From assembly GCA_021805865.1 (NCBI GenBank), contig JAJZDX010000008.1, forward strand, positions 62,001 to 126,000: a stretch of DNA of 64,000 nucleotides, in the 5' to 3' direction. This DNA comes from Pseudomonadota bacterium. GTDB lineage: Bacteria; Pseudomonadota; Gammaproteobacteria; Steroidobacterales; Steroidobacteraceae. The translations under genes were made by a program, and so were the position numbers. This document shows, piece by piece, positions 39,206 through 60,471 of this stretch (its first letter is position 1; each line of letters starts with the position of its first letter). The notes beneath the pieces are model-generated. The model was not told the DNA's origin and did not search any database. It saw only the letters and a program-made list of their open reading frames with translations.

Positions 39206-39233
39206 AGTATGGCAAGCCATACCTATTTGTCAA
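39206..39233 (-). promoter_or_regulatory. Promoter of the excisionase-integrase transcript with 16-bp palindromic operator
   Basis: On the minus strand TTGACA (39233-39228), a 16-bp spacer, and CATACT (39211-39206). The operator GTATGGCAAGCCATAC (39207-39222), with perfectly paired arms GTATGG/CCATAC, fills the spacer and overlaps the -10. Transcription would start near 39199, about 50 nt before the excisionase ATG. A bound repressor would block polymerase. Confidence 0.7.
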
Positions 39234-39287
39234 GCATGAGATACGGCGCCGGGCGTTTCGTCTCGGTGCCACAGTTAAGGGTCTCGG

Positions 39288-39929
39288 TCAGCGACCGTCA
39301 TCCGGTGATCGACGACCCGGCATGATAGCCGCGGCTCCCCGCCGGCAATGAGCTGACGCCTGCTGCGCGTGCGCTCCAAGCTGAGTTTCCACGCTCCCGA
39401 TCATCTCCCGCCAGTTGTCCCATGTCATACGCGGCCCGTGGACACCTCTGTTGTACGGGGCGTCGAAGATCACGTGTCGCCATAGCGGCATCTCCGCACC
39501 ATCGACGCGCGGCTTGTCGTCCACCAGCACATGGCCGCGGACGAGCGTCTTGTCCTTCGTGACGATCAGTCGCTGCAGGAACTCCGCGCCCAGGTGCCGT
39601 TCGACCCACTCGTACTTCTCCGGCACGCAGTTCCGCCAGAATGTGAGCGGCGAGGTGCAGATTCGTACGTCGTGTCCTTCCTCGAGCAGGACATGAACGC
39701 CCTTGAGCGCCCCGTGCATCGGCAGGAGATTGCGATAGAATCCCCGCGCCTCGTAGATACTCCTCACGGCATCCGCCAGACGAGGGGAATAGTCATCAGT
39801 CAGGCGGAAGGACTTGCGCTCGCTCGGCGCGAGCGCCGGCACGTGATCACCATAGCGCAGGTTCCAGGCATCGCGGAATCCGCGTTCGAAATCCGCGAGC
39901 ACGCCGTCCTGATCGAGTAGGATCAACAT
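39288..39929 (-). CDS. 5'(3')-deoxyribonucleotidase, HAD superfamily (NT5C type)
   Basis: 213 residues. HAD motif I is LLDQDGVLADFERGF (nucleophile Asp6, acid Asp8); the middle has FYRNLLPMHGALKGVHVLLEEGHDVRICTS with the motif II threonine/serine, and VTKDKTLVRGHVLVDDKPRVDG gives motifs III and IV. This fits the NT5C family that dephosphorylates dUMP/dTMP-type nucleotides, found in several phages where it reshapes the nucleotide pool. The last 30 residues are unconserved. It is the last gene of the leftward cluster before the excisionase promoter. Confidence 0.85.
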   Translation of the reverse strand: MLILLDQDGVLADFERGFRDAWNLRYGDHVPALAPSERKSFRLTDDYSPRLADAVRSIYEARGFYRNLLPMHGALKGVHVLLEEGHDVRICTSPLTFWRNCVPEKYEWVERHLGAEFLQRLIVTKDKTLVRGHVLVDDKPRVDGAEMPLWRHVIFDAPYNRGVHGPRMTWDNWREMIGSVETQLGAHAQQASAHCRRGAAAIMPGRRSPDDGR

Positions 39930-39956
39930 CGCGAGGGACCTTCGGCCAGCGGCAGG

Positions 39957-40523
39957 TCAGGCGACGAGCCGCGCGACATGGGGTGCCAACGCCGCGAGCA
40001 TCGTGCCGAGCGGCAGGATCGCGCCCCAGGCGAAGGGAATGTCATCGTCGAAATCGACCCCTGCGGGGGCCATTCCCCCTGCGCCGGGCGCGGCCGGGTT
40101 CGGGGCGGCACCCCCCGAAGACCCTGGGGCACCGGTACCGGGCGCTGCCGCCGCGGCATTATCCGAACGGCTCTGCGCGCCGCGGGCCGCGGGACTGCCG
40201 AGCATCTGCAGGTCGTTCACGATGACCTCGGTGCTGTAGCGGTCGTGTCCTTCGCGGTCCTGCCACTTGCGGGTGCGAAGGCTCCCCTCGACATAGATTT
40301 GCGAGCCCTTGCGCAGGTACTCGCCCGCGATCTCAGCGAGCCGTCCGAAGAACACACAGCGATGCCATTCCGTGCGCTCGTGCTGCTCGCCCGTCTGTTT
40401 GTCGCGCCAGGACTCATTCGTGGCGAGACTCACGTTCGCTACGGCGGTGCCGGAGGGCAGGGCGCGCATATCAGGGTCCTGCCCCAGGTTTCCGACCAGA
40501 ATCACCTTGTTCACGCCACGCAT
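39957..40523 (-). CDS. ssb: Phage single-stranded DNA-binding protein with a C-terminal extension
   Basis: 188 residues. OB-fold 1-108 ([64 protein letters not shown]), then a glycine/proline/alanine-rich linker. The acidic tip DFDDDIPF, which is normally the extreme C-terminus and recruits partner proteins, is at 157-164 and is followed by a further 24 mostly hydrophobic residues ([20 protein letters not shown]...). AGGAG eight bases before the ATG at 40523 decides the start. It follows the helicase gene in the leftward cluster. Confidence 0.94.
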
Positions 40524-40556
40524 GTCATGTCTCCTGCGTTGGCCTTGCAAGCCACG

Positions 40557-42362
40557 CTATTCCTGCGGCCGCTCGGCCGCATGCTTACCCTCATTCCCCG
40601 CGCCGCGCGCGAGGTATCGCTCGATCAGTCGCCGCAGGTGACTCTCGTCAGCCTCCGCGACTTGCACGCCGAGGTGGGGGTCTACGATCTGTGTCGCCTC
40701 GCTTTTCTTGATCCCGAGCACGTCCATCATGGGCGGATCCGAGCCATCGTCCGTGACGAGCAGGAAACACGTCACCGGGTTCTTCTGTCCCTCGCGATCG
40801 AGCCGCCAGAGGATCTGCTGGTGGATGCCGGGGGACCAGTCGAGCTCCCCGAGTATCACGACGGAGGAGCGGTGCTGAAGCCCGTCCACCCCTGCGCCGG
40901 AGCGAAGCGACAGGATGAGGATGTCCGTGTCGCCGTCCAGGAACCGGCGCTTCTCGGCCTCCTTGCGAGCCGCGGTCTCGGAGCCCGTGTACATTGCGGG
41001 TTTCAAGTCCGCGAGCGCCTCGAGCCAGATTCGGTAGACCTCGCGGTGCCAGCCGACGAGCAGCACCGGCTCGCCGGCCTCCACCATGAGCCGCGCGAAC
41101 TGCGCAACGGTCTTGGCCTTGGCGATCCCGGTGGCCTGGCGCACCATAATGTCGAGTTCGCGGGCCGCTTGGCCGCGCTCGACGAAGCTGCCGGTGGTGG
41201 CGCGAATGGCGAGCTGCTGCGCGAGCGCTTCCACGGATTCGACGGTCTTGGCGTCATAGTCGATGGTTTCGACGATGATCGAGGTCTTCGGCAGTTGCTG
41301 CCCTACGTCGCTCTTCAATCGGCGGATGAGTGCGTGCTGCTCGCGCAGGTAAGTCCCGAGGGCCTTCGGGTCCTTGATGTGCCCGCCGCGCCCCGCAGCG
41401 CGGTTGACCCATTCGCGCTCGAAGTCCGTCCATCCGCCGAGGACGGCATCGTCGATGAACTGCATCACGTTCCACATCTCGACGCCGTAGTTGTAGATCG
41501 GCGTGGCGGTCAAGCCGAGGCGGTACGTGACCCCCTGGGAGAGGAGGAATGCCGCGGCACCTTTCTGCGTGCCCTTCCCGGTGCGCAGACTTTGCGGCTC
41601 GTCGAACACGGCGGTCTTGAAGAAATTGCCGTGCGACTTGAAGAACTGGATCCACCCGCCGATCTGACTCACGCGAAAGATGTACACGTCGGCGAGCGGC
41701 AGATTGTACGGGGAACCCTTCTCGATCAGGTGGACCGAGAGTTCCGTGAAAGCGGTGATCTTGTCCGCCCATTGCCGCTGCATGTGAGCGTCGCAGATTA
41801 CTGCGGCGGGCAACGTGCCCGACGTACTCGCGAGAAATCCCGCCGCGGTGTACGTCTTGCCGAGTCCGCCTTCATCGCCGAGGAGAAGACTCTTGCGCCG
41901 GCGCAGGACCTCGATCGCCTGCGCCTGGTAGTCGCGGATCCGCTGTCCCGGCTTCACGCCCGCGATGGGGGATGCGCGATAGGCGGGCAGCAGGATGCGC
42001 TCGAGTTCGGCCTGCTCATGATCCCATCCGCGCCGGCCGGTATCGAGCACATGGCGGTCCTCCGCCGTCATGGCAAGCGGATATCGCAAGGTGAACCACT
42101 CGAGGTCTGCGGCGTGCATCAGGTCGTTCGGCAGGTGAAACGGGCCAGCCGATTCCTTCGGCACACGCGGGAAGAGATGCTTGAAGCGGATCGCGACGTG
42201 TGGCTCCAAGTCGGCGATCTCCCATCGGCCCTGCGCCGGACTCGGTCCGGTGCGGCGGCACCCATTGTCATCGGCGACGAGCCGCAGCGTCCCGTAGGTC
42301 CGTGCCTGCGGCGGGCGCTCTTGCGGAGGCGACTCAAGAGGTAGGGGAAGCGCAGCGCTCAC
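40557..42362 (-). CDS. SNF2-type DEAD-box family helicase/translocase
   Basis: 601 residues from a GTG at 42362 that overlaps the nuclease stop (GTGA). Walker A LLLGDEGGLGKTYTA (about 160-174, the GDExGxGKT form of SNF2 proteins), motif II VFDEPQSL (DEPQ instead of DEAH), motif III LTATPIYN, and a C-terminal helicase domain with VLLVGWHREVY, ILSLRSGAGVDGLQ and QQILWRLDREGQ (motifs IV-VI). The overlap with a PD-(D/E)XK nuclease gene suggests the two act together on DNA, possibly in recombination or phage replication. Confidence 0.88.
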   Translation of the reverse strand: MSAALPLPLESPPQERPPQARTYGTLRLVADDNGCRRTGPSPAQGRWEIADLEPHVAIRFKHLFPRVPKESAGPFHLPNDLMHAADLEWFTLRYPLAMTAEDRHVLDTGRRGWDHEQAELERILLPAYRASPIAGVKPGQRIRDYQAQAIEVLRRRKSLLLGDEGGLGKTYTAAGFLASTSGTLPAAVICDAHMQRQWADKITAFTELSVHLIEKGSPYNLPLADVYIFRVSQIGGWIQFFKSHGNFFKTAVFDEPQSLRTGKGTQKGAAAFLLSQGVTYRLGLTATPIYNYGVEMWNVMQFIDDAVLGGWTDFEREWVNRAAGRGGHIKDPKALGTYLREQHALIRRLKSDVGQQLPKTSIIVETIDYDAKTVESVEALAQQLAIRATTGSFVERGQAARELDIMVRQATGIAKAKTVAQFARLMVEAGEPVLLVGWHREVYRIWLEALADLKPAMYTGSETAARKEAEKRRFLDGDTDILILSLRSGAGVDGLQHRSSVVILGELDWSPGIHQQILWRLDREGQKNPVTCFLLVTDDGSDPPMMDVLGIKKSEATQIVDPHLGVQVAEADESHLRRLIERYLARGAGNEGKHAAERPQE

Positions 42363-42790
42363 AGCAGCCACCCCTTCGAGAGGGACGCGGCGTAGACGGG
42401 TTTGCCGCGAATCTCGGCCGGCAGCCCCATGCTGAGGTTCGAGGCGAGGATGATGGCCGCGACCTCGGGGTGTCGGGTGTAGCGCTCGATCTGTCGGTAG
42501 ATGTCGATTTTGCGCGGCCCGCCGCCCGGGCCTTTGAGTTTGCACTCGACTGCGATCCATTGGGTGAGTGCGCGGGGGCAGGGTATTAGGAAGTCGGGGA
42601 TGTCCTCGGCCGAGAGGCGGTGCTCGCGCTCGAAGGGAATTCCGGCTGATGCGAGGGCGACGCTGATCCCGGACTGCATGACTTTCTCCGTGGATAGGTC
42701 CACGCGCGTCCTCGAGAGCAGCCGTACGAGGGTGGCGCAGAAAGACGGCGTGTCGGGGCAGCCGGCACCAGGTGGTGCGGTCTCAGTCAT
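42359..42790 (-). CDS. PD-(D/E)XK nuclease-like protein (VRR-NUC-like)
   Basis: 143 residues. A nuclease core is visible: EREHRLSAEDIPDFLIP then QWIAVECKLKG, giving the D...ExK triad (IPD-x(n)-ECK), followed by IERYTRHPEVAAIILASN and MGLPAEIRGKPVYAASLSKGWL. Holliday-junction-resolvase-like or VRR-NUC-type nucleases look like this. The ATG at 42790 overlaps the upstream DUF4031 stop (ATGA), and its own stop overlaps the helicase start, so three genes are translationally coupled. Confidence 0.75.
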   Translation of the reverse strand: MTETAPPGAGCPDTPSFCATLVRLLSRTRVDLSTEKVMQSGISVALASAGIPFEREHRLSAEDIPDFLIPCPRALTQWIAVECKLKGPGGGPRKIDIYRQIERYTRHPEVAAIILASNLSMGLPAEIRGKPVYAASLSKGWLL

Positions 42791-43113: not shown

Positions 43114-43118
43114 GCCGT

Positions 43119-43707: not shown

Positions 43708-43714
43708 TTGCTCG

Positions 43715-46089: not shown

Positions 46090-46749
46090 TCATCCGCCTC
46101 TGTCCCAATGTAGTTTGTGGTTGTCCGGAGTCGGCCCGATGTATCGCTTGTAAGCTGCAATCCAGTCGTGTGCGATTTCGCTTTGCGCTGTGGCAAGGGG
46201 CAGCTCACGGTGGCACACCAACCAGTGCAGCCGGGCCTCGAGCCGGTCTTTCGCGTAGCTGCCCCATCCTCCTGCGACGCGATGGGGTTGCGGCCACAGG
46301 TTCTTCGGGCTTGTTGGTGATCCCCCGAGAGACAGGGCGACTTCGTGATCTTCCTCATAATCCCGCAGCCAGCGGTCCCGGTAGCCGTACTCGCGGATCT
46401 GCAAGCGCTTCAGCCGTTCAGTGTAGCGCTCCGGCGGGCGGATGCTGCGCGAGTAGCCGCGCACGCAAATCGTCTGGTGGATATCAGCCTGCGTGACCGC
46501 AGGATTCAACGCGCCAGGGGTGAGACCTGGATTTGGAAGCGCCTCGCGCAGCGGATGCTGCGCATCGTGGTGGCGGTGGGAATCGTATCGGGCACGCCAA
46601 TAGGTGTCCCGAGACCGGAAATTGCTCGTGTTCTGACTCGATCCGCCGAGCCCGTGCTGTGAGGCAAGGGCCGACGGGTGACCGCAACCCAAGAGGGCGA
46701 GCGAGCCGAGAAGAGCGGCGATAGCGGCGGCGCGGTGACGTGAGAACAC
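46090..46749 (-). CDS. Predicted lipoprotein with HNH-type endonuclease motif
   Basis: About 219 residues from a GTG at 46749 with GGAG upstream. The N-terminus is a lipoprotein signal: basic start, AAAIAALLGSLALLGC, with Cys22 as acylation site. The C-terminal domain has YEEDHEVALSLGGSPTSPKNLWPQP (about 131-155), the EDH...GG...NLWPQ form of a widespread HNH-like family, often secreted. A DNA-cutting enzyme held at the membrane by a phage could damage incoming DNA, but this is inference. It is the first gene after the operator promoter at 46819-46846. Confidence 0.75.
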   Translation of the reverse strand: MFSRHRAAAIAALLGSLALLGCGHPSALASQHGLGGSSQNTSNFRSRDTYWRARYDSHRHHDAQHPLREALPNPGLTPGALNPAVTQADIHQTICVRGYSRSIRPPERYTERLKRLQIREYGYRDRWLRDYEEDHEVALSLGGSPTSPKNLWPQPHRVAGGWGSYAKDRLEARLHWLVCHRELPLATAQSEIAHDWIAAYKRYIGPTPDNHKLHWDRGG

Positions 46750-46818: not shown

Positions 46819-46846
46819 CGTATGGTATACCATACGTCCCTGTCAA
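46819..46846 (-). promoter_or_regulatory. Promoter of the distal leftward cluster with 18-bp perfect palindromic operator
   Basis: On the minus strand TTGACA (46846-46841), 16-bp spacer, CATACG (46824-46819). The palindrome CGTATGGTATACCATACG (46819-46836) is perfect and covers most of the spacer and the -10. It would serve the gene at 46749 and probably the run of minus-strand genes down to 39288. Expected start near 46812. Confidence 0.7.
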
Positions 46847-49508: not shown

Positions 49509-49835
49509 CTATCGCCGCTCAGCAGCTTCATCGGCCTCGATGAGTGCGCGGGCGGCCAAAAGACCGATATCGCCCAACTGAAGTCCCGCCCGCTCCCTTG
49601 CCGGCGTGGCGAGCAGCGCCCGCATGCCGAATTGTTTGAGGAAACACCGGCCGTGATACGGCTTGCCGAACAAATGCAGGCAGTGCCGATCGTCGGTGAG
49701 GTCGCGGCAGTGCGCGCAGACCACGAGGTGGCGCACGTCGTGCGCGCGCCGGATGGCCGGTTTGGGCAGGGGCCCGAGGTCGCTCAGATACCGCTCGATT
49801 CCGCTCTCGTCGAGGAGTGAATTCTGAGTGTGCAT
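49509..49835 (-). CDS. Zinc-finger-like phage protein, first gene of the proximal leftward transcript
   Basis: 108 residues. A cysteine/histidine cluster HLVVCAHCRDLTDDRHCLHLFGKPYHGRCFLKQFG (CxxC, then H and C ligands) resembles a small LIM- or FYVE-like zinc-binding fold. The ATG at 49835 lies about seven bases beyond the -10 of the promoter at 49843-49870, so its mRNA would have essentially no leader. No family name. Confidence 0.7.
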   Translation of the reverse strand: MHTQNSLLDESGIERYLSDLGPLPKPAIRRAHDVRHLVVCAHCRDLTDDRHCLHLFGKPYHGRCFLKQFGMRALLATPARERAGLQLGDIGLLAARALIEADEAAERR

Positions 49836-49842: not shown

Positions 49843-49870
49843 ACGTAAGGCAGGCCATACGTTCAGTCAA
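49843..49870 (-). promoter_or_regulatory. Leftward immunity-region promoter with operator
   Basis: On the minus strand TTGACT (49870-49865), 16-bp spacer and TTACGT (49848-49843). The operator GTAAGGCAGGCCATAC (49845-49860) is a one-mismatch palindrome in the same place as at the other promoters. Start is expected near 49836, at the ATG of the gene that follows. Confidence 0.65.
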
Positions 49871-49888: not shown

Positions 49889-49904
49889 GTCTGGCAAGCC
49901 ATAC
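49889..49904. promoter_or_regulatory. Auxiliary operator upstream of the leftward promoter
   Basis: GTCTGGCAAGCCATAC matches the consensus at 15 of 16 positions. It lies 19 bp beyond the -35 of the leftward promoter with no -10/-35 pair of its own, so it could be a second repressor site for cooperative binding. The 247 bp between it and the repressor gene hold no convincing gene. Confidence 0.6.
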
Positions 49905-50151: not shown

Positions 50152-50424
50152 CTAGGGCGGAGAGGTCTTCTTAGTCTTCCGTACTCTTCCGGGCTGGGGG
50201 ACGTTGACCGTGCCGGGCGGGCCGAGAATCAAATGGTTCGGCGTGCAGCCGAGCACCTGGGTGACTTTGAGGAGCATCTCAAGCTTGATGTTCTTGATTG
50301 CTCCGCCTTCCCATTGATTCACGGTGGCACGGGTCACGCCGACCCGTCTCGCGAGCTCCGCCCCCGACCACTCTCTTTGGATGCGCATTTCACGGATGCG
50401 CTCGCCCATACGTTTACTTTCCAT
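50152..50424 (-). CDS. XRE-family repressor (CI-like), short form
   Basis: 90 residues. Helix-turn-helix at about 8-62 (RIREMRIQREWSGAELARRVGVTRATVNQWEGGAIKNIKLEMLLKVTQVLG). It is too short to carry an S24 self-cleavage domain. AGGA lies before the ATG at 50424. It is divergent from the Cro-like gene with operators between them, the classical arrangement of a phage immunity switch, so it is the best candidate for the protein that binds the 16-bp palindromes. Confidence 0.87.
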   Translation of the reverse strand: MESKRMGERIREMRIQREWSGAELARRVGVTRATVNQWEGGAIKNIKLEMLLKVTQVLGCTPNHLILGPPGTVNVPQPGRVRKTKKTSPP

Positions 50425-50448: not shown

Positions 50449-50464
50449 GTATGGCATAAATGAC
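50449..50464. promoter_or_regulatory. Half-operator upstream of the repressor gene
   Basis: GTATGGCATAAATGAC keeps the left arm of the operator exactly while the right arm is degenerate (4 mismatches). It lies 25 bp upstream of the repressor ATG, where it could give weak autoregulation. Confidence 0.45.
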
Positions 50465-50483: not shown

Positions 50484-50511
50484 TTGACACGAACGTATGG
50501 CATGCTATACA
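50484..50511 (+). promoter_or_regulatory. Rightward (cro) promoter with operator
   Basis: TTGACA (50484-50489), 16-bp spacer, TATACA (50506-50511). The operator GTATGGCATGCTATAC (50495-50510) fills the spacer and the -10. The start point would be near 50518, only about five bases before the ATG of the Cro-like gene, with no Shine-Dalgarno between. Confidence 0.75.
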
Positions 50512-50522: not shown

Positions 50523-50816
50523 ATGAGAACGGTAGATGCCATTCGCCACTTTGGCAGCAAGGCCGCAGTGGCCCGCGCGCTCGGGATCACCCGGGCGTCG
50601 CTCACGGACTGGAAGGACTTGGTCCCGGCGCTGCGCGCCGCGCAGCTCGAGCAGATCACGGCGGGACATCTGAAGTTCGACCCGAACGAGTACCTGGACT
50701 GCGGTGTGCGGGCGATTCGGGATCCCGGGCCGCAGGCGGTCTCATCAGCGCGCGCCATGAACGCCGCCCGTCCGGCGCGCCCCGCTTCGAAGAAGCGCGC
50801 GTCGCGACGCCAATAG
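50523..50816 (+). CDS. Cro-type DNA-binding regulator
   Basis: 97 residues. The start MRTVDAIRHFGSKAAVARALGITRASLTDWKDLVPALRAAQLEQITAGHLKF is the Cro/YdaS-type helix-turn-helix found as the first gene of phage rightward operons. A basic tail ends the protein (SKKRASRRQ). It is divergent from the repressor and should compete for the same operators. Its transcript looks nearly leaderless. It heads a long plus-strand operon. Confidence 0.88.
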   Translation: MRTVDAIRHFGSKAAVARALGITRASLTDWKDLVPALRAAQLEQITAGHLKFDPNEYLDCGVRAIRDPGPQAVSSARAMNAARPARPASKKRASRRQ

Positions 50817-51558: not shown

Positions 51559-52070
51559 TGGCGCAGGTCCCTCTGGCATTCGAGGATCCGACCGCACCGC
51601 AGGTCCCGGCGAAGGCCCCCGGCGGGGACCTGTCAGCCGGACCCTCCGCACAGAGGGGGTCGGCACCGCCGCCTGGCATGGCGCGGTGCGCCGCGTGCCG
51701 ATCGTTCCAAGCGCGCCCGGCGGGTGAACCAAACGGGATCGAAGGGTGGTGCACCAGGTTTCACGTGGAAACCTGGTCCGAGCCGCTCTTCGTATGCGCC
51801 GGCTACGTCCCGGCGGACCCGGGGGTCGTGGCGCTGCACCGTCGCAGGGTCGAGGTCATCCAGCGCCTCAAAGCGCAACCCGCTGTGCGATATGCGTGGG
51901 ACGTGGAGAACGCATCCCCGGCCGGCCCCGCTTCGGCGGACGTGTCCGTCATGCTGGGCATCCGTCAAGGCGATGGAACGATCCTGACGGGGGCGCTGCG
52001 TATCCCGGCCGCCCGGTGGGACATGGGGACGTTCATGGCTGCTCTGGATGGGGGGGGCGGTCAGCCATGA
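51558..52070 (+). CDS. Hypothetical cysteine-containing phage protein
   Basis: 170 residues. Proline-rich start, then RCAACRSFQARPAGEPNGIEGWCTRFHVETWSEPLFVCAGY: four or five cysteines (CxxC, C, C) spaced as a small zinc- or metal-binding module found in phage and plasmid proteins. The rest has no recognised domain. ATGA overlap with the helicase start suggests a role in replication. Confidence 0.65.
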   Translation: MAQVPLAFEDPTAPQVPAKAPGGDLSAGPSAQRGSAPPPGMARCAACRSFQARPAGEPNGIEGWCTRFHVETWSEPLFVCAGYVPADPGVVALHRRRVEVIQRLKAQPAVRYAWDVENASPAGPASADVSVMLGIRQGDGTILTGALRIPAARWDMGTFMAALDGGGGQP

Positions 52071-53569
52071 CGATTGCCGCTCCGGAGGGGTTTCCGCCCC
52101 CGCGCCCGTTTCAGGTCGAAGCGATCGAGGCCCTGCGTGGTCATATCCGCAGACAGATCCGCTCGCTGATCCTCTGCGCGCCAACCGGTGCCGGTAAGAC
52201 GTACACCGCGATGTGGCTTGCGAACCTGACGCTCGCCAAGGGCAAGCGGGTGGTGTTCATCGCGGATCGCATTTCCCTCATCGATCAGACCTCCCGCGTC
52301 GCTGACGGCTATGGCCTCGATCACGGGGTGATCCAGGCGAATCACCCGCGGCGCGCGCCGGAGAAGCCGTTTCAGATCGCGAGCACACAGACGCTCGCCC
52401 GCCGTGGCGAGGTTCCCGCCGCCGACGTCTACATCATCGACGAAGCGCACACGCAGTACGAAGAGACGCTGAAACTGCTCCGCGCGAAGAAGGCGGTCAT
52501 CATTGGCCTCACCGCAACACCGTGCACGGCGGGACTGAAGGATCACTTCGACGAACTCATCAACGCCGTCACGATGGAGAAGTTGACGGAGGATGGAGTT
52601 CTGGTTCCGTTGCGGGCCTTCAAGGGGCCGGTGCCCGATATGAAAGGCGTGCGCAAGCTCGGCGGCGAGTGGACGGCAGGTGGTGCCGAACGCCCTTGCG
52701 TGCTCAAGATCGAGGCCGTCGTGCGCGAGTGGCAGGCAAAGGGCCAAGGCCGCAAGACCATCGCCTTCGGCCCCACGATCGGTTACGCGCAGTTGCTCGC
52801 CGACGCATTCAATGCTGCTGACATTCGTGCAGCGAGCTACACAATGAGCACGCCGTCGCGCGAGCGCAAGGAACTGCTCGAAGAATTCCGCAAGTCGGAC
52901 TCCGCGATCCGCGTGTTAACGTCCGTCGAGGCCCTCGGCAAGGGCTTCGATGTACCCGATGTGGGCTGCATCGTCGACGCGCGGCCCTTCCAAAAATCAA
53001 TGTCGGCGGTGATCCAGATGTGGGGACGCGGCGTGCGCGCTGCGCCCGGCAAAACCGATTGCGTGCTCCTCGACTGCTCGGGAAACGTCGGGCGTTTCTG
53101 GCGGGACTTTCGCGTCATCTTCCAGCACGGTTTTGAGACGCTGAGGGCTGCTGAGGAAGCGGACGAGGAGGTCCGCGATGGCGAGGAGAAAGCGTGTCCG
53201 CAATGCAAAGCCATCCCTTTCGCAACACATTGCGCCGCCTGCGGGTACAGCGAGATCGGCAACACGGTTGAGATCGTGGATGGGGCGCTCGATGAAGAGG
53301 CGTTGCGTTTGTGCGGGTGGAGCCGCCGCTCGCTGTGGGAGCAGATCTGCGCCTACATGGAGGGATCGCGCACGCCGGCGCAGAAGCGCGCTTGGCGTGC
53401 GCGCTTCACGTATCGAGACTTCACGGGCGAGTTTCCGCCGCAGGCGTGGTCTTACCGTGCGGGCACTCGCGGCTGCCCGGGCGAACTGAAGCGGCGGATT
53501 TGGGCGCGCGATGCCGCGTGGCGGCGGCAGCACCCGAGACCGGGGAGTCTTTCGGGGGTATCGCGATGA
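52067..53569 (+). CDS. DEAD/DEAH-box helicase with zinc ribbon
   Basis: 500 residues. Superfamily 2 motifs: Q-like PPPRPFQVEAI, Walker A CAPTGAGKTYTA (37-48), DEAH (125-128), GLTATP (147-152), SVEALGKGFDVPDV and motif VI IQMWGRGVRAAPGK (316-329). A four-cysteine ribbon follows (CPQC at 377-380, CAAC at 389-392). The closest theme is phage replication/recombination helicases such as UvsW- or RadD-like. It lies directly before the candidate origin and primase, so it is the likely replicative or origin-opening helicase. Confidence 0.88.
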   Translation: MTIAAPEGFPPPRPFQVEAIEALRGHIRRQIRSLILCAPTGAGKTYTAMWLANLTLAKGKRVVFIADRISLIDQTSRVADGYGLDHGVIQANHPRRAPEKPFQIASTQTLARRGEVPAADVYIIDEAHTQYEETLKLLRAKKAVIIGLTATPCTAGLKDHFDELINAVTMEKLTEDGVLVPLRAFKGPVPDMKGVRKLGGEWTAGGAERPCVLKIEAVVREWQAKGQGRKTIAFGPTIGYAQLLADAFNAADIRAASYTMSTPSRERKELLEEFRKSDSAIRVLTSVEALGKGFDVPDVGCIVDARPFQKSMSAVIQMWGRGVRAAPGKTDCVLLDCSGNVGRFWRDFRVIFQHGFETLRAAEEADEEVRDGEEKACPQCKAIPFATHCAACGYSEIGNTVEIVDGALDEEALRLCGWSRRSLWEQICAYMEGSRTPAQKRAWRARFTYRDFTGEFPPQAWSYRAGTRGCPGELKRRIWARDAAWRRQHPRPGSLSGVSR

Positions 53570-53997
53570 GCGGTGGAGAGATCGGCATGTCGCCGCGGCA
53601 TCTGGCACATCCGGCTTTGGGCGCGGTGTTTGATCCCGAAGTGTCGCAAGTGTCGCAGAGTGTCGCAGGCCGTTGCGACACTCAGTTGGAGCTCGTAAGT
53701 GCCGGAAGCGACACGGAAAAATTACGAAGTGTCGCAAGTGTCGCAAGGTTCTCAGCGGAAATGATGGAATCGCGGGAAGAGAGCGGGAGTGTTGTAACTA
53801 AACAACAACATGGAAAATTTGCTTCAGGGGATTCCGCGTCACCTGCGACGCTGTCGGGAGTCTTGCGACACTTGCGACAGTTGAGTCGGCATCAAGCCGA
53901 TCAACGACTTACGCGCGCGAAGTGTCGCAAAACCCGCTGCGACAGTGTTGCGACACTTGCGACACTTGCGCGGCAGCGGTCAGGGAGGCGCTCATGA
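53566..53997 (+). CDS. Possible protein encoded across the repeat region
   Basis: 143 residues by overlap of both ends (ATGA with the helicase stop, ATGA with the primase start), which argues for translation. However its sequence is largely dictated by the 9-bp repeats (EVSQVSQSVAGRC, RSVASVARF, RHLRQLSRH), so it may be a by-product of keeping the operon translated through the origin. No domain. Confidence 0.4.
   Translation: MSGGEIGMSPRHLAHPALGAVFDPEVSQVSQSVAGRCDTQLELVSAGSDTEKLRSVASVARFSAEMMESREESGSVVTKQQHGKFASGDSASPATLSGVLRHLRQLSRHQADQRLTRAKCRKTRCDSVATLATLARQRSGRRS
53640..53966. repeat. Candidate replication origin: ten 9-bp iterons around an AT-rich core
   Basis: AGTGTCGCA occurs at 53640, 53649, 53659, 53728, 53737 and 53921, and its reverse complement TGCGACACT at 53674, 53864, 53949 and 53958. 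Near-matches lie at 53708, 53873 and 53938. Neighbours are mostly 9 bp apart. Left copies mostly point right and right copies mostly point left, around a core containing GGAAAAATTACG and a GTTGT/ACAAC hairpin (53791-53806) with GGAAAATTT. Position between a helicase and a primase supports an origin. Confidence 0.7.
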
Positions 53998-54464
53998 TCG
54001 ATGCGCTCCTGAACCGCTTGCAACGTGTGCGCCAGACCGGAGACGGTCATTGGACCGCGCTCTGTCCCGCGCACGCCGACCGCTCGCCGTCGCTCTCGAT
54101 CCATGAGACCCGCGACGGGCGCATTCTCATCCACTGTTTCGCGGGCTGCGCGCCGGGGGACGTTCTCTCGAGCCTGGGACTGACCTTCACAGACCTATTC
54201 CCCGAGCGGTTGCGCGCGCTTGCGACCGAGCAGGGATTCGCGCCGGTGCGGTTGCGCGAGGCCGCGGAGCAGGTACTGGCCTCGATCGATCATGACCTCC
54301 TAGTCGCCGCGCTGGTGCTCGCCGACTGCATGGAAGCCGGGCGGATCGAGCGTGACCAACTCGATCTCCTGATCTCGATCACGGGCAAGGTCGCGACGGC
54401 GAAAGAAGTGTCAGGCCGGTGCGTTCATGTGGTGGACTCATGTGGGAAGCCGCGTGCCAACTGA
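53994..54464 (+). CDS. Zinc-finger primase-like protein
   Basis: 156 residues. The N-terminus has the CHC2-type primase zinc finger: WTALCPAHADRSPSLSIHETRDGRILIHCFAGC with Cys24, His27, Cys48 and Cys52. The rest is helical and no TOPRIM domain is present, so only the template-recognition part of a primase is encoded here. GGGAGG precedes the ATG. It is followed, with a 38-bp overlap, by the DUF3987 protein, the usual partner in this split arrangement. Confidence 0.85.
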   Translation: MIDALLNRLQRVRQTGDGHWTALCPAHADRSPSLSIHETRDGRILIHCFAGCAPGDVLSSLGLTFTDLFPERLRALATEQGFAPVRLREAAEQVLASIDHDLLVAALVLADCMEAGRIERDQLDLLISITGKVATAKEVSGRCVHVVDSCGKPRAN

Positions 54465-56058
54465 GCCGGAATACCAGCCGCGCGGGATTGCCGCGCAGGA
54501 GATCCTCCGCCGTATGGAGGCGGACGGCGGCGGCGTCGCAGCCAAGATCGACGCCTGGCCGAAGCCGGAGCAGATCGTGCCGGCACTCGCTGCGGCGCCG
54601 TATCCCATCGAGGCGCTGCCCGATGTCGTGCGCGAGGCGGTGCAGGAAGTGCAAGGCTTCTTGAAGGCACCACTTTCGATGGTGGCGATGAGCGCGGTGA
54701 CCGCGATGAGTCTCGCCGCGCAAGGCATTGCGGATGTGGAGCGTGCGGAGGGATTGCGCGGTCCGAGCAGCCTGTTCGTGATCACCGTGGCGGAATCCGG
54801 TGAGCGTAAGAGCGCGTGCGACAATTTTTTTGCCAAGCCCCTGCGTGAGTATGAGCAGGCGCGGCTCGACGAGAATCTCGAGCAAGTGAAGGACTACGAG
54901 GCGGAGCTCGCCGCATGGACGGCTCGGATGGAGGCGCTCACGGCGGGGCTGCGCAAGGAGAAAGGGAAATCCGCCTCGAGCGCTGACAGTGTGGCGGAGC
55001 TCGCAGAGGCTCAGCGGGCGAAGCCCGAGGCGCCGCGAATGCCGCAGATGTTCTATGAGGACACGACGCCGGAGGCGATTGCGTGGGGGCTGGCGAAGAA
55101 GTGGCCCTCGGCCGCGATCATGGCCGCTGAGGGCGGGATGATCCTGGGTGGGCATGGCATGAGCAAGGAGACGCTCGTCCGGAACCTCGCGCTGATCAAC
55201 GTCCTCTGGGATGGGGCGAGTGTGACGATCGATCGGCGCACCAAGGAGAGTTTTCGGGTCGCCGGTGCGCGCCTCACAGTCGGTATTCAGGTGCAATCCG
55301 GTCTGCTGCTGGACTTCGTGCAGAGCACCCGTGGCCTCGCACGCTCATCGGGTTTTCTCGCGCGATTTCTCATCGCATGGCCGGAGAGTACGCAGGGGTA
55401 TCGAGACTTCTGCGAACCGCCACCGGGGTTCCCGGCACTCACGGCCTATCACGCCCAGTTGCGAACGATGCTCGAGCGCCAGGGGACGCTGGATGAGCAC
55501 GGGCGTCTGGTGCCGCGCGTGCTGCCGCTTGAGTCGGCTGCGAAACGATCATGGGTGGCCTGGCACGACAACGTGGAGCACTCCATGCGGCCGACGCGGG
55601 AGATGGTGGACCTCAAGGACGTGGCCGCCAAAGCGGCCGACAATCTCGCGCGGGTTGCCGCCGTCCTCGCGGTCTTCGAGGACCCTGCCACTGCGGTCGT
55701 GGCCGAGCGGCACATCTGCGCCGGGGCGGCGATCATGAATTGGCACCTTCAGGAGGCGCGTCGGTTCTTTGGCCAAGTTGCTTTGCCGGTGGAAATTGGC
55801 GATGCGGTATTGATCGACGGTTGGTTGGCCAAGCGCTCCCGCGATACCGGCAAGACTCGATTTGCCAAGCGCGACGTACAGCGATTGGGACCGGTGCGCG
55901 AGCGCGAGCGGTTCACGCTGGCACTCTCCATTCTTGAAGACTCCGCTCGGGTACGGATCGTTCGTGAAGGACGCGCGTGGCTCGTGGAACTCAATCCTGC
56001 GCTCGCAGGTAGTGCGGCGGGAAACACATCGAGCGGTCCGGTGGCCGCTCGCAGTTAG
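54427..56058 (+). CDS. DUF3987 (YfjI-type) replication-associated P-loop protein
   Basis: 543 residues; the start may instead be a GTG at 54442 or 54454. SLFVITVAESGERKSACDNFF (116-136) holds a P-loop variant (SGERKS); EDTTPEAIAWGLAKKWPSAAIMAAEGGMILGGHGM and GARLTVGIQVQSG ... FLARFLIAWP complete the DUF3987 pattern. Members act as helicase-like partners of zinc-finger primases in phages and plasmids. A central coiled segment (about 135-175) is inserted. Confidence 0.85.
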   Translation: MWWTHVGSRVPTEPEYQPRGIAAQEILRRMEADGGGVAAKIDAWPKPEQIVPALAAAPYPIEALPDVVREAVQEVQGFLKAPLSMVAMSAVTAMSLAAQGIADVERAEGLRGPSSLFVITVAESGERKSACDNFFAKPLREYEQARLDENLEQVKDYEAELAAWTARMEALTAGLRKEKGKSASSADSVAELAEAQRAKPEAPRMPQMFYEDTTPEAIAWGLAKKWPSAAIMAAEGGMILGGHGMSKETLVRNLALINVLWDGASVTIDRRTKESFRVAGARLTVGIQVQSGLLLDFVQSTRGLARSSGFLARFLIAWPESTQGYRDFCEPPPGFPALTAYHAQLRTMLERQGTLDEHGRLVPRVLPLESAAKRSWVAWHDNVEHSMRPTREMVDLKDVAAKAADNLARVAAVLAVFEDPATAVVAERHICAGAAIMNWHLQEARRFFGQVALPVEIGDAVLIDGWLAKRSRDTGKTRFAKRDVQRLGPVRERERFTLALSILEDSARVRIVREGRAWLVELNPALAGSAAGNTSSGPVAARS

Positions 56059-56072
56059 TTTTTTCGTGGTAG

Positions 56073-56088
56073 GTATGGCATGCCACAC
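56073..56088. promoter_or_regulatory. Operator-like palindrome downstream of the DUF3987 gene
   Basis: GTATGGCATGCCACAC matches the consensus at 15 of 16 positions. It stands in a 228-bp non-coding stretch, the largest in the rightward operon. Flanking -35/-10 matches are weak (TTTCGT, CACACA), so a second repressible promoter for the methyltransferase genes is possible but not clear. Confidence 0.5.
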
Positions 56089-56286
56089 ATGCTGAGGGTA
56101 ATTGGGTTCGAAGACGGCGCGCGGGGCGCGCCGCCGCCCCTCACAGGGGGAACGCGCGCGGAGGGGACCGCAAGGGATGGCACCGCGCGCGGGGCGTTGG
56201 AAACGGCGAATTCGTGGGACGTGACGGGCCCGTCCGCCGTCTGCGCCTCCCCCTGTCCCCACTCATCGCTCTCACGGAGACCGTGG

Positions 56287-56538
56287 ATGTTTCAGACCCT
56301 AGTGGAAATCGAACCGAGGCGCTTGCAGTGGATCGAGCGGCAGTTCAGCCGATCGAATCTGCTGAGTGTGGTCAACATCGAGGTCGATGAGAAGACCGGT
56401 ATCGCCTCCGTACTGTGGGCGGAGCGGACCCGGGGCGATATGCGCAACGTCGCGGCCGTTGGCTTTCTCATCGAGCTCTCGCGCCTCGACCTGCCGCTCT
56501 TCTGTCTCTACCAGGACGAGCAGGAGCGTCCCTCATGA
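56287..56538 (+). CDS. Small hypothetical phage protein, 83 residues
   Basis: MFQTLVEIEPRRLQWIERQF, then NIEVDEKTGIASVLWAERTRGDMRNVAAVGFLIELSRLDLPLFCLYQ: a compact alpha/beta protein. Family not recognised. First gene after the operator at 56073; its stop overlaps the methyltransferase start by ATGA. Confidence 0.6.
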   Translation: MFQTLVEIEPRRLQWIERQFSRSNLLSVVNIEVDEKTGIASVLWAERTRGDMRNVAAVGFLIELSRLDLPLFCLYQDEQERPS

Positions 56539-57776
56539 CCCGTTGCGTGGGAGCACACAATGCAAGCGTCGCGCAATCAGAGGACTCGGGATCGGCGGCG
56601 GCAGCATACGCCTCGGATGGGAGAGTTCCCGCAGAGGCGGACTCCCGTGCGCCCATTGTCATCGGCGGTGCGACGCTCTACCGCGCCGATTGCCGGGATG
56701 TACTGCGGAGTCTCGCGCCCGAGTGCATCGATGGCATCGTCTGCGACCCGCCGTACAACCTGACCTCGGCGCGGCCCGGTGGCCGCAGCGCGGCGACCCG
56801 TGGTGCAGTGATGCGCGGGTTCATGGGACTCTCATGGGACGCGACGGGGATCGCATATGACCCCGCGCTCTGGCGGGAGTGCCTGCGAGTCTTGAAGCCA
56901 GGTGCGCATCTCCTTGCGTTTGGTGGCACGCGCACCGCGCACCGGATGGTGTGCGCGATCGAGGATGCGGGATTCGAGATCCGTGATTCGATCCTCTGGA
57001 TCTACGGCTCGGGGTTCCCGAAGTCGAAGAACCTCGCGGGCGAGCGGGATGGTTGGGGATCGGCGCTGAAGCCCGCCTGTGAACCCATCGTGCTCGCGAG
57101 GAAGCCTCTTGCGGAGCGGACGCTCGAGGCGAACGTCGCGCGCTTTGGCACCGGTGCGTTGAATATCGATGCGTGTCGCGTCTCGGCCCCGGAGGGTGCC
57201 GTGGTGCGGATCGCGCACTTTGAGAGCGGATCGAAGCGCGGATTTGGTGGCGGACTCAAGGGCGGGTCCCGAAGCGTGCCGCAGGAGCGTGGGCGCTGGC
57301 CGGCGAACGTCATCCACGACGGGAGCGATGAAGTGCTCGGGTGCTTCCCGGAGGCACCCGGCCAGCTCGTGCGCGCGCGGACCGACGGCGCCGCGCAGGG
57401 CAACGCGGTGTACGGCGCGCTGCGGCACGTGACTCGGGAGCCTGAGCCGCGAGCGGATTCCGGGATTGCCGCGCGCGGCACCGCCGCGCGGTTCTTCTAC
57501 TGCGCGAAGGCGAGCCGCGCGGACCGAGGGACCGGCAACACACATCCGACGGTCAAGCCGACCACGCTGCTCGGCTATCTCTGCCGACTCGTGACCCCGA
57601 TTGGGGGCACCGTTCTCGGCTGCTTCATGGGATCGGGGTCGACGGGTATTGCTGCGCTCCGCGAGGGCTTTCGCTTCATCGGCGTCGAGAAGGACCCGTC
57701 ATATTTCGCGATCGCGTGCGGCCGGCTGCTGCGAACCGAGAAGGATGTCCGCGTGGCCGAGGAGCGCGCCCGATGA
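56535..57776 (+). CDS. DNA methyltransferase (N6-adenine or N4-cytosine)
   Basis: 413 residues. Motif IV is IVCDPPYNLTS (68-78) and the AdoMet motif I near the C-terminus is VLGCFMGSGSTGIAAL (about 359-374), an order placing it in the beta class, common in phage. The DPPY form favours adenine methylation. A target-recognition region lies between. It starts the run of three methyltransferases, ATGA-overlapping the next. Confidence 0.9.
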   Translation: MTRCVGAHNASVAQSEDSGSAAAAYASDGRVPAEADSRAPIVIGGATLYRADCRDVLRSLAPECIDGIVCDPPYNLTSARPGGRSAATRGAVMRGFMGLSWDATGIAYDPALWRECLRVLKPGAHLLAFGGTRTAHRMVCAIEDAGFEIRDSILWIYGSGFPKSKNLAGERDGWGSALKPACEPIVLARKPLAERTLEANVARFGTGALNIDACRVSAPEGAVVRIAHFESGSKRGFGGGLKGGSRSVPQERGRWPANVIHDGSDEVLGCFPEAPGQLVRARTDGAAQGNAVYGALRHVTREPEPRADSGIAARGTAARFFYCAKASRADRGTGNTHPTVKPTTLLGYLCRLVTPIGGTVLGCFMGSGSTGIAALREGFRFIGVEKDPSYFAIACGRLLRTEKDVRVAEERAR

Positions 57777-59242
57777 GTCCCGCTTGCGGTGCGCAGCACC
57801 TCGTCTACGGCAGCGTTTTCTCCGGCATCGAGGCGGCGACCGTCGCGTGGCATCGACTCGCCTGGCAACCCGCGTTCTTTTCGGAAATCGATCCGTTCTG
57901 CTGCGCGCTCCTCGCGCATCACTATCCCGGGGTCGCCAATCTAGGCGACATCAACAGACACGAGGACTGGCCGAATGCAACAGTTGACCTTATTGTCGGG
58001 GGATCACCCTGTCAGGACTTCTCCGTCGCTGGACGACGGGAAGGACTTGGCGGCTCGCGTGGTCGGCTCACCCTGGTCTATCTGGAGGTTCTTCGACGCC
58101 TTAAGCCCCGTTGGGTTGTGTGGGAGAACGTACCCGGCGTCCTGTCATCGCACGGCGGACGGGATTTTGGAGCCTTCCTCGGGCAACTGGGCCAACTCGG
58201 GTATGGGTGGGCGTACCGGGTGCTGGACGCTCAGTACGTCCGAGTGGAATCACACGCTCGTGCCGTCCCGCAACGCCGACGCCGTGTCATCCTTGTCGGA
58301 TATCTTGGAGACATCCGACCCGCAGCGGCGGTACTTTTTGAGCCCGCGTGCCTGCTCGGGGATCCTCCGCCGCGCCGCGAAGCGCGGCAAGCAATTACCG
58401 GCACACTTAACTCGCGCCCTCGAGGCAGCGGTGGCCTTGGCACGGACTTCGATCTCGACGGCGGACTCATAGGCGCGTCGCACGCGCTTTGTGCCTCGAG
58501 CGGCGGTGTCGATTCCGAGGACCGGCACACACTCATCGCGCGCGCCTTCGGTGGCAATAACACGAGTGGCCCGATTGATGTCGCCACCGCGCTGAACGCA
58601 TGCGGGTCGGCCAGCGGGCGCATGGATTTCGAGACGGAGACCTTCGTCGCGCATTGCCTGAAAGCCGAAGGAGCGGACGCCTCAGAGGACGGTACAGGCC
58701 GGGGGGTGCCGCTGGTGGCGTTCGACACGACGCAGATCACGTCAAAGACGAACCGCTGCAATCCGCAGCCCGGTGACCCGTGTCATCCATTGGCGGCCGG
58801 GGCACATGCGCCTGCGATTGCGTTCAACCTGCGTGGCCGGGAGGGCGGTTCGCAGCCGGAAGCCTCCGATGTGGCCTCGCTGCGCGCCGCGAATGGCGGG
58901 AGTTCGCGGACCTTCGTCGCTCAGACCTTGACGGCTGAGCAGCACAGATCCGGTGGGGCAGTGGCCGGTAATAGTGCTGGCGTCGTCAACCCCGTATTCC
59001 CGCCGGCCGGCGGCGTGCGAAGGCTTACGCCCCGCGAGTGCGAGCGGCTTCAAGGGTTCCCCGACGATTACACGTTGATCCCGTACCGCGGCAAGTCGGC
59101 TGCGGACGGTCCCCGCTACAAAGCGCTCGGCAACAGCATGGCGATCAACGTCATGTCGTGGGTCGGCGAGCGTATCCAGATGGTCAACGGACTCATCCGT
59201 GACCTGCCGCAATTCCACCAGGAGACGAGGAAACGAGTATGA
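57773..59242 (+). CDS. C5-cytosine DNA methyltransferase
   Basis: 489 residues. Motif I VYGSVFSGIEAATVAWHRLAW (11-31), motif IV GGSPCQDFS (catalytic Cys80), motif VI WENV (117-120), motif VIII QRRRRV, and terminal motifs IX-X (RLTPRECERLQGFPDDY, ALGNSMA). The target-recognition region is long and contains phage-type repeats (FGGNNTSGPIDVATALNACGS). It methylates cytosine in a specific site. No cognate restriction gene is visible. Confidence 0.93.
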   Translation: MSPACGAQHLVYGSVFSGIEAATVAWHRLAWQPAFFSEIDPFCCALLAHHYPGVANLGDINRHEDWPNATVDLIVGGSPCQDFSVAGRREGLGGSRGRLTLVYLEVLRRLKPRWVVWENVPGVLSSHGGRDFGAFLGQLGQLGYGWAYRVLDAQYVRVESHARAVPQRRRRVILVGYLGDIRPAAAVLFEPACLLGDPPPRREARQAITGTLNSRPRGSGGLGTDFDLDGGLIGASHALCASSGGVDSEDRHTLIARAFGGNNTSGPIDVATALNACGSASGRMDFETETFVAHCLKAEGADASEDGTGRGVPLVAFDTTQITSKTNRCNPQPGDPCHPLAAGAHAPAIAFNLRGREGGSQPEASDVASLRAANGGSSRTFVAQTLTAEQHRSGGAVAGNSAGVVNPVFPPAGGVRRLTPRECERLQGFPDDYTLIPYRGKSAADGPRYKALGNSMAINVMSWVGERIQMVNGLIRDLPQFHQETRKRV

Positions 59243-60471
59243 GCGAGCGAAGTGTTGCCCCCGAACTGCCGTTCGGGGATGGGCCTCTGAAACCGAGGGA
59301 GTTCCGGGAACTCCCCGTCAACGACATCGTGCCGGACCCCGATCAGATCCGCACGTTCATCGACCCGGATCGCTTTGGCGAGCTCTGTCGAAGCATCGCG
59401 GTGATCGGGCTACTGCACCCGATCGGGGTGCGCGAGATCGCCTCTGGGGCGAATCGCTGGATGATCATTGATGGCGAGCGTCGCTGGCGTGCCGCGAAGT
59501 TCATCGGGTTGGAGACGCTTCCGTGCCGCATCTATCTCACGCATAGCGTGACGGAGCTCCGGGTGCTGCAGACCTCGGAGAACATGCACCGCGAGGAGCT
59601 GAAGCTCGACGAGTACGCAGAGGCCGTGCGCGAACTCGTGGAGGGTGGGATGGAACCCGATGTGATTGCCCATGTGCTCGCCAGGAGCGAGGAGTGGGTC
59701 AAGGGGGCGCTCGATATCGCGCGCACGCCCGATGCGCTCGCACTCATCCACGCTGATCGGCTCTCGAGCGTCGAGGCATGGCAGATGTACTGCGACCTGC
59801 CGCCGGAGGCGCGGAAGATTCTCCTCGATTCGCTGGATCCGATTTCAGTCGGTCGCTGCCGCAAGGCGCTCGCGTTCATCGAACGGCAGAACGCAAAGAG
59901 GCAGGCCGTGCTCTTTGGCCCTGCGGGCGGCGCGACCAAGGCCGGTACCCACGGCACGGGGGCGGATGGGGTGAATGGTGGAGGGAGTGAGGCTGAAACC
60001 GATGTCGCCGCCGCCGGGATGAGCACGGGGACCGGTGAACCGGGTGAAAGCGATGCGTGCTTTATGTCGCATGAGGCGAGCGGTTCGGAGGAAGCGCATG
60101 CGCTCGGCGGCGATCTCGAGTCGGTCAGTGCCGATGCGGGAGATCGAGATTTCGCATCGTCGTCGCCGCCCGAGGCGAGCACTTCTTTTGGCCTCGGCGG
60201 TATGGCAAGCCACACGTCGGAGGATTCCTCGTCAGGACCGGGACCCGGACATCGGGGAATGGCGGGTCCGCCGTGCCCACATTGCGGAAAGGGCGCGCAC
60301 GCGGCGGTGTGTGTCGACCGGCCGAGCGATACCTGGCGCGTGACCTGCTACGTCTGCGGGGACATGGGACCGCCTGGGTTCGGGTTTCAGGGGGCCTATG
60401 CAAAGTGGTCCGAGCGCGCGTCGGGTGTAGGCGGCGCTGCCGCGCAGGGCATCGGGGAGGCCGCAGCATGA
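59239..60471 (+). CDS. ParB-like protein with C-terminal zinc ribbon
   Basis: 410 residues. N-terminal ParB/Spo0J domain (NDIVPDPDQIRTFIDPDRFGELCRSI, DGERRWRAAKFIG at 78-90, TSENMHREELKLDEYAEAV), then helix-turn-helix sequence. After a long serine/glycine-rich linker comes PPCPHCG ... WRVTCYVCGDMGP (cysteines at about 346, 349, 370, 373), resembling the restriction-alleviation Lar family. ParB domains of phage bind or cut DNA with CTP. Clustering with methyltransferases suggests DNA protection. Confidence 0.85.
   Translation: MSERSVAPELPFGDGPLKPREFRELPVNDIVPDPDQIRTFIDPDRFGELCRSIAVIGLLHPIGVREIASGANRWMIIDGERRWRAAKFIGLETLPCRIYLTHSVTELRVLQTSENMHREELKLDEYAEAVRELVEGGMEPDVIAHVLARSEEWVKGALDIARTPDALALIHADRLSSVEAWQMYCDLPPEARKILLDSLDPISVGRCRKALAFIERQNAKRQAVLFGPAGGATKAGTHGTGADGVNGGGSEAETDVAAAGMSTGTGEPGESDACFMSHEASGSEEAHALGGDLESVSADAGDRDFASSSPPEASTSFGLGGMASHTSEDSSSGPGPGHRGMAGPPCPHCGKGAHAAVCVDRPSDTWRVTCYVCGDMGPPGFGFQGAYAKWSERASGVGGAAAQGIGEAAA
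60200..60215. promoter_or_regulatory. Operator-like sequence inside the ParB-like gene
   Basis: GTATGGCAAGCCACAC differs from the consensus at one position. It is within coding sequence and without promoter elements, so it may be chance, or an extra binding site for the repressor. Confidence 0.3.

Follow-up and report, generated by a model that had tools for sequence, protein, structure and literature searches.

A dispersed palindrome at the predicted promoters of excision-integration and type IV-A CRISPR genes in a tRNA-Gly-integrated element of a Steroidobacteraceae bacterium

Introduction

The repressors of the phages P22 and lambda carry a C-terminal peptidase/dimerisation domain, P22 C2 and Cro share operators, and dispersed operators are known, besides from mycobacteriophage L5, from the phages phiC31 and P1. 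Type IV-A CRISPR (clustered regularly interspaced short palindromic repeats)-Cas systems silence their targets rather than cutting them. Their occurrence in plasmids and conjugative integrating elements is documented (PMC11656645). Little was found in print on when the CRISPR system of a mobile element switches on, and the accessible part of a review of CRISPR regulation makes no mention of 'type IV' (PMC10013973). Likewise, no cas operon under the excisionase-integrase (xis-int) operator of its own mobile element was found in the literature covered, the type IV systems in integrative and conjugative elements (ICEs) of Acidithiobacillia (Moya-Beltran 2021) lying outside this coverage. The present analysis deals with a 64,000-nucleotide stretch of DNA, referred to as the window (positions 62,001 to 126,000 of contig JAJZDX010000008.1, here C70, assembly GCA_021805865.1), from a bacterium of the family Steroidobacteraceae (Gammaproteobacteria), and with an element which is integrated there at a tRNA-Gly gene and extends past the end of the window. 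The palindromes spread over this element are, with good confidence, regarded as probable operators of one element-encoded repressor, most likely an XRE protein, which would silence excision, replication-type genes and CRISPR together. The arrangement suggests that mobility and a CRISPR weapon may be held off by the same switch.

Distribution and promoter context of the palindrome

A search for the palindrome GTATGGCAWGCCATAC with up to 3 mismatches gave 14 strand hits in the window. These mark 7 places, each within 39207-60215 and each matching with at most 2 mismatches. In the shuffled window, the mean at the 3-mismatch threshold was 0.42 strand hits (maximum 4). The whole genome (4,683,097 bases on 83 contigs, the window being C70:62001-126000) features 16 strand hits with up to 2 mismatches, which correspond to 8 places, all in C70:101207-126762, and no further such palindrome occurs anywhere else in the 4.68 Mb. 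The eighth place, termed O8, is C70:126747-126762, i.e., position 64747 in window numbering, 0.75 kb past the window end. The original prediction had described a dispersed palindrome family and had suggested a genome-wide scan; window, shuffle and genome counts show its confinement to the element, the motif not being equally frequent outside. At exactly 3 mismatches, 28 strand hits (21 places) were obtained elsewhere in the genome and 17 with the reversed control pattern, and this mild surplus is treated as background.

A symmetric position matrix was built from the 8 sites and scored them at 21.4-27.2, partly in a circular manner, compared to a maximum of 16.5 when the element was simulated 20 times with an order-1 Markov model. 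Since the matrix derives from the sites that it scores, the pattern counts provide the cleaner evidence. In the host part of the window, zero matrix matches of at least 12 were found. Two sites had originally been considered weak. This holds for 50449-50464, whose score of 11.2 lies inside the simulated range, and is revised for 60200-60215, which has 1 mismatch and scores 24.0, higher than the sites at 49845 and 49889. A match at C55:34478 (17.6) was dismissed as chance, since it shows 3 mismatches and is without TTGACA. In IMG/VR, the exact motif occurs in 26 stretches, of which only L038 has genes of the element plus a second site above 15 (19.2); L029, L036 and L041 feature a second weak match of 14.4-14.6 and the remaining ones a single match. 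Given the size of the collection, the occurrences other than L038 are taken as chance by our own estimate.

The sites of the window and their surroundings are as follows, together with counterparts in the related genomes G013 and G019.

39207-39222: operator O1, in the leftward xis-int promoter TTGACA-16-CATACT (39206-39233); counterpart at G013:C84:30276
46820-46835: operator O2, in a leftward promoter read by eye as TTGACA-16-CATACG (46819-46846); counterpart at G019:C31:4284
49845-49860: operator O3, in a leftward promoter TTGACT-15-CTTACG by eye (49844-49870)
49889-49904: operator O4, 44 bp from O3, without a promoter of its own
50449-50464: weak operator-like site beside the repressor start, matrix score 11.2
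50495-50510: operator O5, in a rightward promoter TTGACA-16-TATACA by eye (50484-50511)
56073-56088: operator O6, between the genes 54514-56058 and 56287-56538 and without a clear promoter; counterpart at G013:C84:12950
60200-60215: operator O7, inside the parB linker, without a promoter; symmetric variant at G013:C84:8643

The -35 hexamer TTGACA is placed 5 bp from the operator at 39207, 46820 and 64747, and the far end of the operator can form the -10 hexamer; at O8, the perfect TTGACA is followed by CATACG as a possible -10 with a spacer of 16 bp by eye. At least 5 of the 6 bases of TTGACA at an offset of 4-5 bp were found for 5/8 own sites, compared to 0.9% of background positions (either strand), and for 11/19 sites scoring at least 14 on four contigs of relatives (4/8, 2/4, 3/4 and 2/3). 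Operators had been predicted to be built into the promoters of xis-int, two leftward clusters and cro, which is supported by these data. The uniform architecture proposed along with this, with a 16-bp spacer filled by the operator, stands by eye at 39207, 46820 and 50495 and gives way to a 15-bp spacer at 49845. Moreover, the automatic fit shifted the -10 by 2 bp, with spacers of 17-18 at 46820, 49845, 50495 and 64747, and due to this disagreement between the two readings the exact -10 is unsettled and less certain than the -35. No convincing promoter was recovered by the automatic fit around 49889, 56073 and 60200.

The type IV-A CRISPR operon and its spacers

O8 starts 49 bp upstream of an operon of five genes encoding a 231-aa protein, a Cas6-like protein, Csf3, Csf2 and CasDinG, the latter four being recognised by PADLOC (Cas6 1.4e-12, Csf3 1.5e-30, Csf2 6.1e-29, CasDinG 2.9e-99). 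NCBIfam scores are under the curated cut-offs, which characterizes the system as a diverged type IV-A system. The first gene (231 aa), tested for its csf1/Cas8-like position, showed no family match and no significant similarity to the first gene of the Bosea locus. A CRISPR array of 17 repeat units with degenerate distal units follows the operon (L006:6859-8176). As a set of sites, the regulon that had been predicted to reach from the immunity region to int has good support; it extends further to a CRISPR-Cas operon just past the window, its most interesting member.

Relatives of Csf2 look rare: one of 296 genomes sampled in the order (the present one itself) and two of 398 in the phylum (itself and G602) were matched, and these counts are lower bounds, since the csf-bearing genome G013 is absent from the matches and was thus undrawn or missed. 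The 33 plasmid records matching Csf2 are at most 30% identical, an alignment of Csf2 against viral contigs gave no relative, and the whole array had zero matches in plasmids and phages.

The array contains 16 intervals, and the 14 of up to 45 nt were compared, leaving out two long ones, with C69, C55 (part), C70 (part), C84, L043, G602, four short loci and later with seven loci from the search for spacer sp4. Spacers sp1, sp4 and sp5 match one gene of C69 with 5, 3 and 4 mismatches, respectively. Two features led to the name 'pilV-like' for this gene, a Shufflon_N match that stays under the Pfam cut-off and a position after PilS among the genes of a type IVb pilus cluster. Near matches of sp4 (1-3 mismatches) occur in 5 of the 58 genomes searched in the genus, the own genome included (C16, C48 and C69). 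Spacer sp3 is matched at 36/36 positions in G045:C30 and on the own contig C48 and with 3 mismatches on the own contigs C16 and C43, with zero matches in the other 56 genomes searched. Thus, 4/14 spacers (sp1, sp3, sp4 and sp5) hit one pilV-like gene family of conjugative contigs. Identity to the C69 gene is 53-100% for the target genes on C16, C43 and C48 and in G045, G011, G005 and G019, and no Pfam match was obtained with the C48 and G045 genes themselves. C16 encodes a relaxase (PF03432 4.9e-21) and C48 a NikA-like and a TrbL protein, and no operator scoring at least 14 was found in the C16 and C48 stretches. The base at position -2 is T before every listed spacer match. With 8 mismatches, sp10 against L042 was not counted as a target. 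As the binned assembly may mix strains, co-residence of the target contig C48 with the element is probable only. The related pilV-like genes on the own contigs C16, C43, C48 and C69 may reflect several conjugative elements in one host or, again, strain mixing.

Hairpins resembling the CRISPR repeat were also observed outside the array, e.g., at L007:4077-4102 (C70:150077-150102) directly before the relaxase start, at G045:C16:1845/1888, G022:C109:26102/26145, G025:C15:9894/9937 and others. With up to 3 mismatches, they occur in 9/58 genomes of the genus, the own one included, either single or paired 43 bp apart. Several are near a recurring 'STGSLATGNE' protein, which also lies after pilV on C69, and an irregular unit in the distal array (L006:7896-7960) resembles, by eye, the paired hairpins of the outside loci. 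These hairpins could possibly be decoys of the Racr kind or the source of the CRISPR repeat. In addition, G021:C125 (L111) is a related element fragment with by-eye homologues of the pre-csf genes and of the topoisomerase, which enclose an additional gene and a single CRISPR-like repeat; csf is apparently absent.

Conservation in relatives

The 90-aa XRE protein (50152-50424), the candidate repressor, was searched in 99 genomes. High similarity is seen on five contigs, of which two belong to G019 and one each to G028, G013 and the present genome, and the four relative proteins are 57-71% identical to the own one over the alignment, with a presumed recognition helix that is, by eye, nearly unchanged. 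The motif is present on 4/4 of the relative contigs, with 8 sites scoring at least 14 on G013:C84, 4 and 4 in G019 and 3 in G028, and the repressor gene is located beside operators on all four. As a control, 20 loci with distant homologues were used (L012-L014 and L052-L068), of which L060 is the G013 element, leaving 19; three of these have one match of 14.7-15.4 and 16/19 have none of at least 14. In PLSDB, the repressor has one match at 32% identity.

The contig G013:C84 (35.5 kb) carries a syntenic element which adjoins the same host genes and whose csf proteins are 72-80% identical. Four operator pairs (xis-int, 56073, parB and csf), picked because both elements have a site there, were aligned, and each pair keeps 14/16 bases at 42-82% identity of the 100-bp flanks; the left flank at xis-int reaches 82%, so the contrast with the operator is weak at this place. 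The distance from the start of the csf operator to the first csf gene is 49 bp and 50 bp in the two elements. O7, located in a poorly conserved protein linker, changes symmetrically to GTCTGGCAAGCCAGAC, a pattern that speaks for selection acting on the DNA. No site of at least 12 was seen in G013:C84 at the position corresponding to O2; O2 is kept in G019:C31.

Candidate binders

Three proteins of the element are considered as binders of the palindrome.

50152-50424, minus strand: XRE repressor of 90 aa, HTH_3 (4.9e-13), P22 C2/434-like helix-turn-helix (HTH)
50523-50816, plus strand: P22-Cro-like protein, PF14549 (6.6e-19, scanned from 50502)
59239-60471, plus strand: ParB-type protein (ParB_N) with a C-terminal Lar-like zinc ribbon, the rival binder

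Judged from sequence, the binder is most likely the XRE protein, in agreement with the original choice of this transcription factor: it has an HTH_3 match and kinship to 434 and P22 C2, and the contigs of its close homologues carry the motif without exception. By sequence, the DNA-binding domains of 434 and P22 C2 are the closest solved structures, and a fold search with the structure model resulted in P22 C2 in its operator complex as the best match, besides the single-domain controllers C.BclI and C.AhdI. Residues 72-89 are of low confidence in the model. No S24 peptidase match in Pfam was found in the 90 aa, which makes an SOS self-cleavage as in SetR unlikely, and no S24 or ImmA-type partner had a Pfam match among ten proteins (nine from window 46-52 kb and one of a relative).

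The Cro-like protein belongs to the P22_Cro family and is 47% identical to P22 Cro over 57 aa. Its gene directly follows O5, and G013 and G019:C297 encode homologues. Its start is presumably located a few nucleotides past the predicted transcription start, which would make the transcript nearly leaderless. It is quite unlikely that this protein is the main binder or that it competes with XRE for a common set of operators in a shared switch as in P22. No Cro homologue was found on 2/4 motif-bearing relative contigs (L043 and L044, both short), and shared binding by Cro would be compatible with XRE as the maintenance repressor.

Another proposal concerns the ParB-type protein, for which the palindrome would be a parS- or KorB-operator-like site serving partition and long-range silencing, as with KorB on RK2. 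The protein combines a ParB_N domain with a GERRWRA motif, which we take to be a CTP motif, parS sites have a length of 16 bp, and O7 is a conserved site inside parB without a promoter. Furthermore, KorB acts on a plasmid as a repressor and CTP clamp (PMC11790492). This proposal appears unlikely, as most own sites feature a repressor-like geometry in promoters and the relatives show tandem pairs beside xre. Moreover, the ParB-type protein is 77% identical in G013, whereas G019 and G028, which have the motif and an XRE protein at 67-71%, offer ParB matches of only 34-37%, both assemblies being fragmentary. The C-terminus of the ParB-type protein shows a weak match to the Lar-type zinc ribbon (0.0013) and is highly conserved in G013.

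Boundaries, gene content and class of the element

The following features of the element lie within the window.

37499-37576, plus strand: tRNA-Gly(GCC) (37499-37574) and attL; 48 bp (37529-37576) are exactly repeated at G000:C81:1712-1759 (attR)
37649-38965, minus strand: tyrosine integrase, PF00589 (9.7e-10), phrog_1 (4.1e-25)
38962-39150, minus strand: excisionase-like HTH_17 protein, PF12728 (4.2e-15), phrog_66 excisionase and regulator (5.9e-10)
39288-39929, minus strand: 5'-deoxynucleotidase, leftward gene
39957-40523, minus strand: single-stranded DNA-binding protein (SSB), leftward gene
40557-42560, minus strand: SNF2-type helicase, leftward gene
46090-46749, minus strand: gene at the head of the leftward cluster behind O2, without a Pfam match; homologues 68% and 77% identical in relatives
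49509-49835, minus strand: open reading frame (ORF) behind O3, without a Pfam or PHROG match
52067-53569, plus strand: RadD-like helicase, rightward replication-type gene
53994-54464, plus strand: primase-like, rightward replication-type gene
54514-56058, plus strand: helicase-like, rightward replication-type gene

G049 shows the element-free site: there, the left flank of the element runs through the tRNA directly into the sequence that lies to the right of attR. On C70 itself, no att repeat was found with 14-bp words, and a 12-bp tRNA match on C69 was ruled out as attR by its orientation. Directly right of attR, in sequence common to G049, there is a further integrase-like gene (G000:C81:1780-3063; 427 aa by eye), which is proposed to belong to another element or remnant at the same tRNA-Gly.

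A relaxase (L007:4107-5381, PF03432 9.4e-23, TraI_middle 1.2e-13), cut by the end of C70, is preceded by a NikA-like protein, with a TraT homologue and a topoisomerase upstream of both. VirB4 is encoded on contig C69, together with a type IVb pilus, and once more on C55, these contigs being separate from C70 in the assembly. A simple script called 67 ORFs in the element, with evident errors at the end, and 30 proteins were scanned against PHROGs. The element had originally been considered a prophage, its palindromes thus forming an ordinary phage immunity regulon. This would fit the repressor/Cro pair, xis-int next to a tRNA, PHROGs matches of helicases, primase and methyltransferases, one relative fragment in a viral collection and three weak structural-type matches. 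Of these, one links the excisionase-like HTH protein to a terminase small subunit (6.7e-4), and the others are to a tail assembly chaperone (0.0056) and a head-tail adaptor (0.025). The phage interpretation is nevertheless highly improbable and the label lacks support in view of the relaxase with TraI_middle, the NikA-like protein, the TraT homologue, the topoisomerase, the ParB-type protein and the att repeats at the tRNA. No convincing match to terminase, portal, capsid or tail was obtained among the 30 proteins, part of the element being unassembled. The element is called an integrative mobilizable or conjugative element in tRNA-Gly, and its immunity switch is phage-like.

Proposed regulation

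From the observed sites, their confinement, promoter geometry and conservation across elements, as well as the csf operon with its array and spacer matches, the following binder, sign of regulation, timing and benefit are proposed. The XRE repressor would bind the palindromes, probably as a dimer like the P22 C2 and 434 repressors. In the integrated element, it would cover the gap between -35 and -10 of the promoters of xis-int, the two leftward clusters, the cro-like gene and csf, and thereby keep all of them off; O4 may assist O3 through cooperative binding, and O6 and O7 may block read-through as roadblocks. If repression fails, or in a new host before the repressor builds up, the promoters would fire together, and the CRISPR effector would hence appear as the element excises, replicates or arrives, with spacers that point at pilV-like genes of other conjugative elements. 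Tentatively, and with more doubt than assurance, the type IV-A CRISPR could thus be timed as an arrival or excision weapon, being off in the resident state and on upon induction or in a repressor-free host, where it would silence the pilV-like genes of resident rivals. If this is true, even a perfectly matched rival, such as the own contig C48, can coexist with the element in the resident state.

Several points weigh against this interpretation. Three of the eight own sites and 8/19 sites of relatives are away from the promoter offset, the structure model of the XRE protein is moderate (mean predicted local distance difference test (pLDDT) 72), and the ParB-type protein of the same element could bind 16-bp palindromes. 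The link between csf and the operator is drawn from two elements, and Csf2 was not found in the fragmentary assembly of G028 despite the presence of repressor and motif. The array leader is without a site scoring at least 8, so that the array may be transcribed independently. Likewise, in the type IV loci of G602, Alteromonas and Bosea (20-25 kb each), the sequence before csf held no shared operator comparable to the present one, and what recurred there was weak (2-3 mismatches); the coupling may thus not be general. For this one family, a csf promoter with the xis-int operator offers a direct and testable answer to the question of when the system switches on, and mobility and RNA-guided competition may be one programme.

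Comparison with known systems

Like the C2-Cro switch of P22 and 434, the element features an XRE protein with a P22 C2/434-type HTH and a P22-type Cro in divergent orientation with an operator between them, a likeness in proteins and layout. In contrast to these phages, the repressor has 90 aa without a C-terminal peptidase/dimerisation domain, and the operators are spread over 25 kb and reach non-phage genes. The element is a further example of a conjugative-type element under the control of a phage-type switch, as proposed here. In the available parts of the respective sources, SetR of the SXT/R391 ICEs is likewise a CI-like repressor which keeps the ICE quiescent; unlike the present protein, for which no S24 domain was found and whose sites are spread, SetR has 215 aa, an S24 peptidase and four operators in one intergenic region (PMC4542580). 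The stoperators of mycobacteriophage L5 type are similar in that repressor sites are spread through the element and are partly off promoters, but they are asymmetric 13-mers, more than 20 in number and predicted to be bound by a monomer (PMC9283540), whereas eight 16-bp palindromes, five of them at promoters, are found here. Likewise, operators of KorB coordinate silencing on the conjugative plasmid RK2 (PMC11790492), KorB being ParB-type, whereas an XRE protein is the better candidate here. In the case of ImmR of TnSmu1 from Streptococcus mutans, the CRISPR is of another type and listed apart from the TnSmu1 genes, and the terms 'operator' and 'palindrom' have 0 occurrences in the accessible part of the source. 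Finally, with csf2, csf3, cas6, dinG, an array and spacers against conjugative elements, the system resembles the type IV-A systems on plasmids and ICEs as far as these are covered by the available part of the source (PMC11656645), from which it differs in that the cas promoter bears the element's own xis-int operator.

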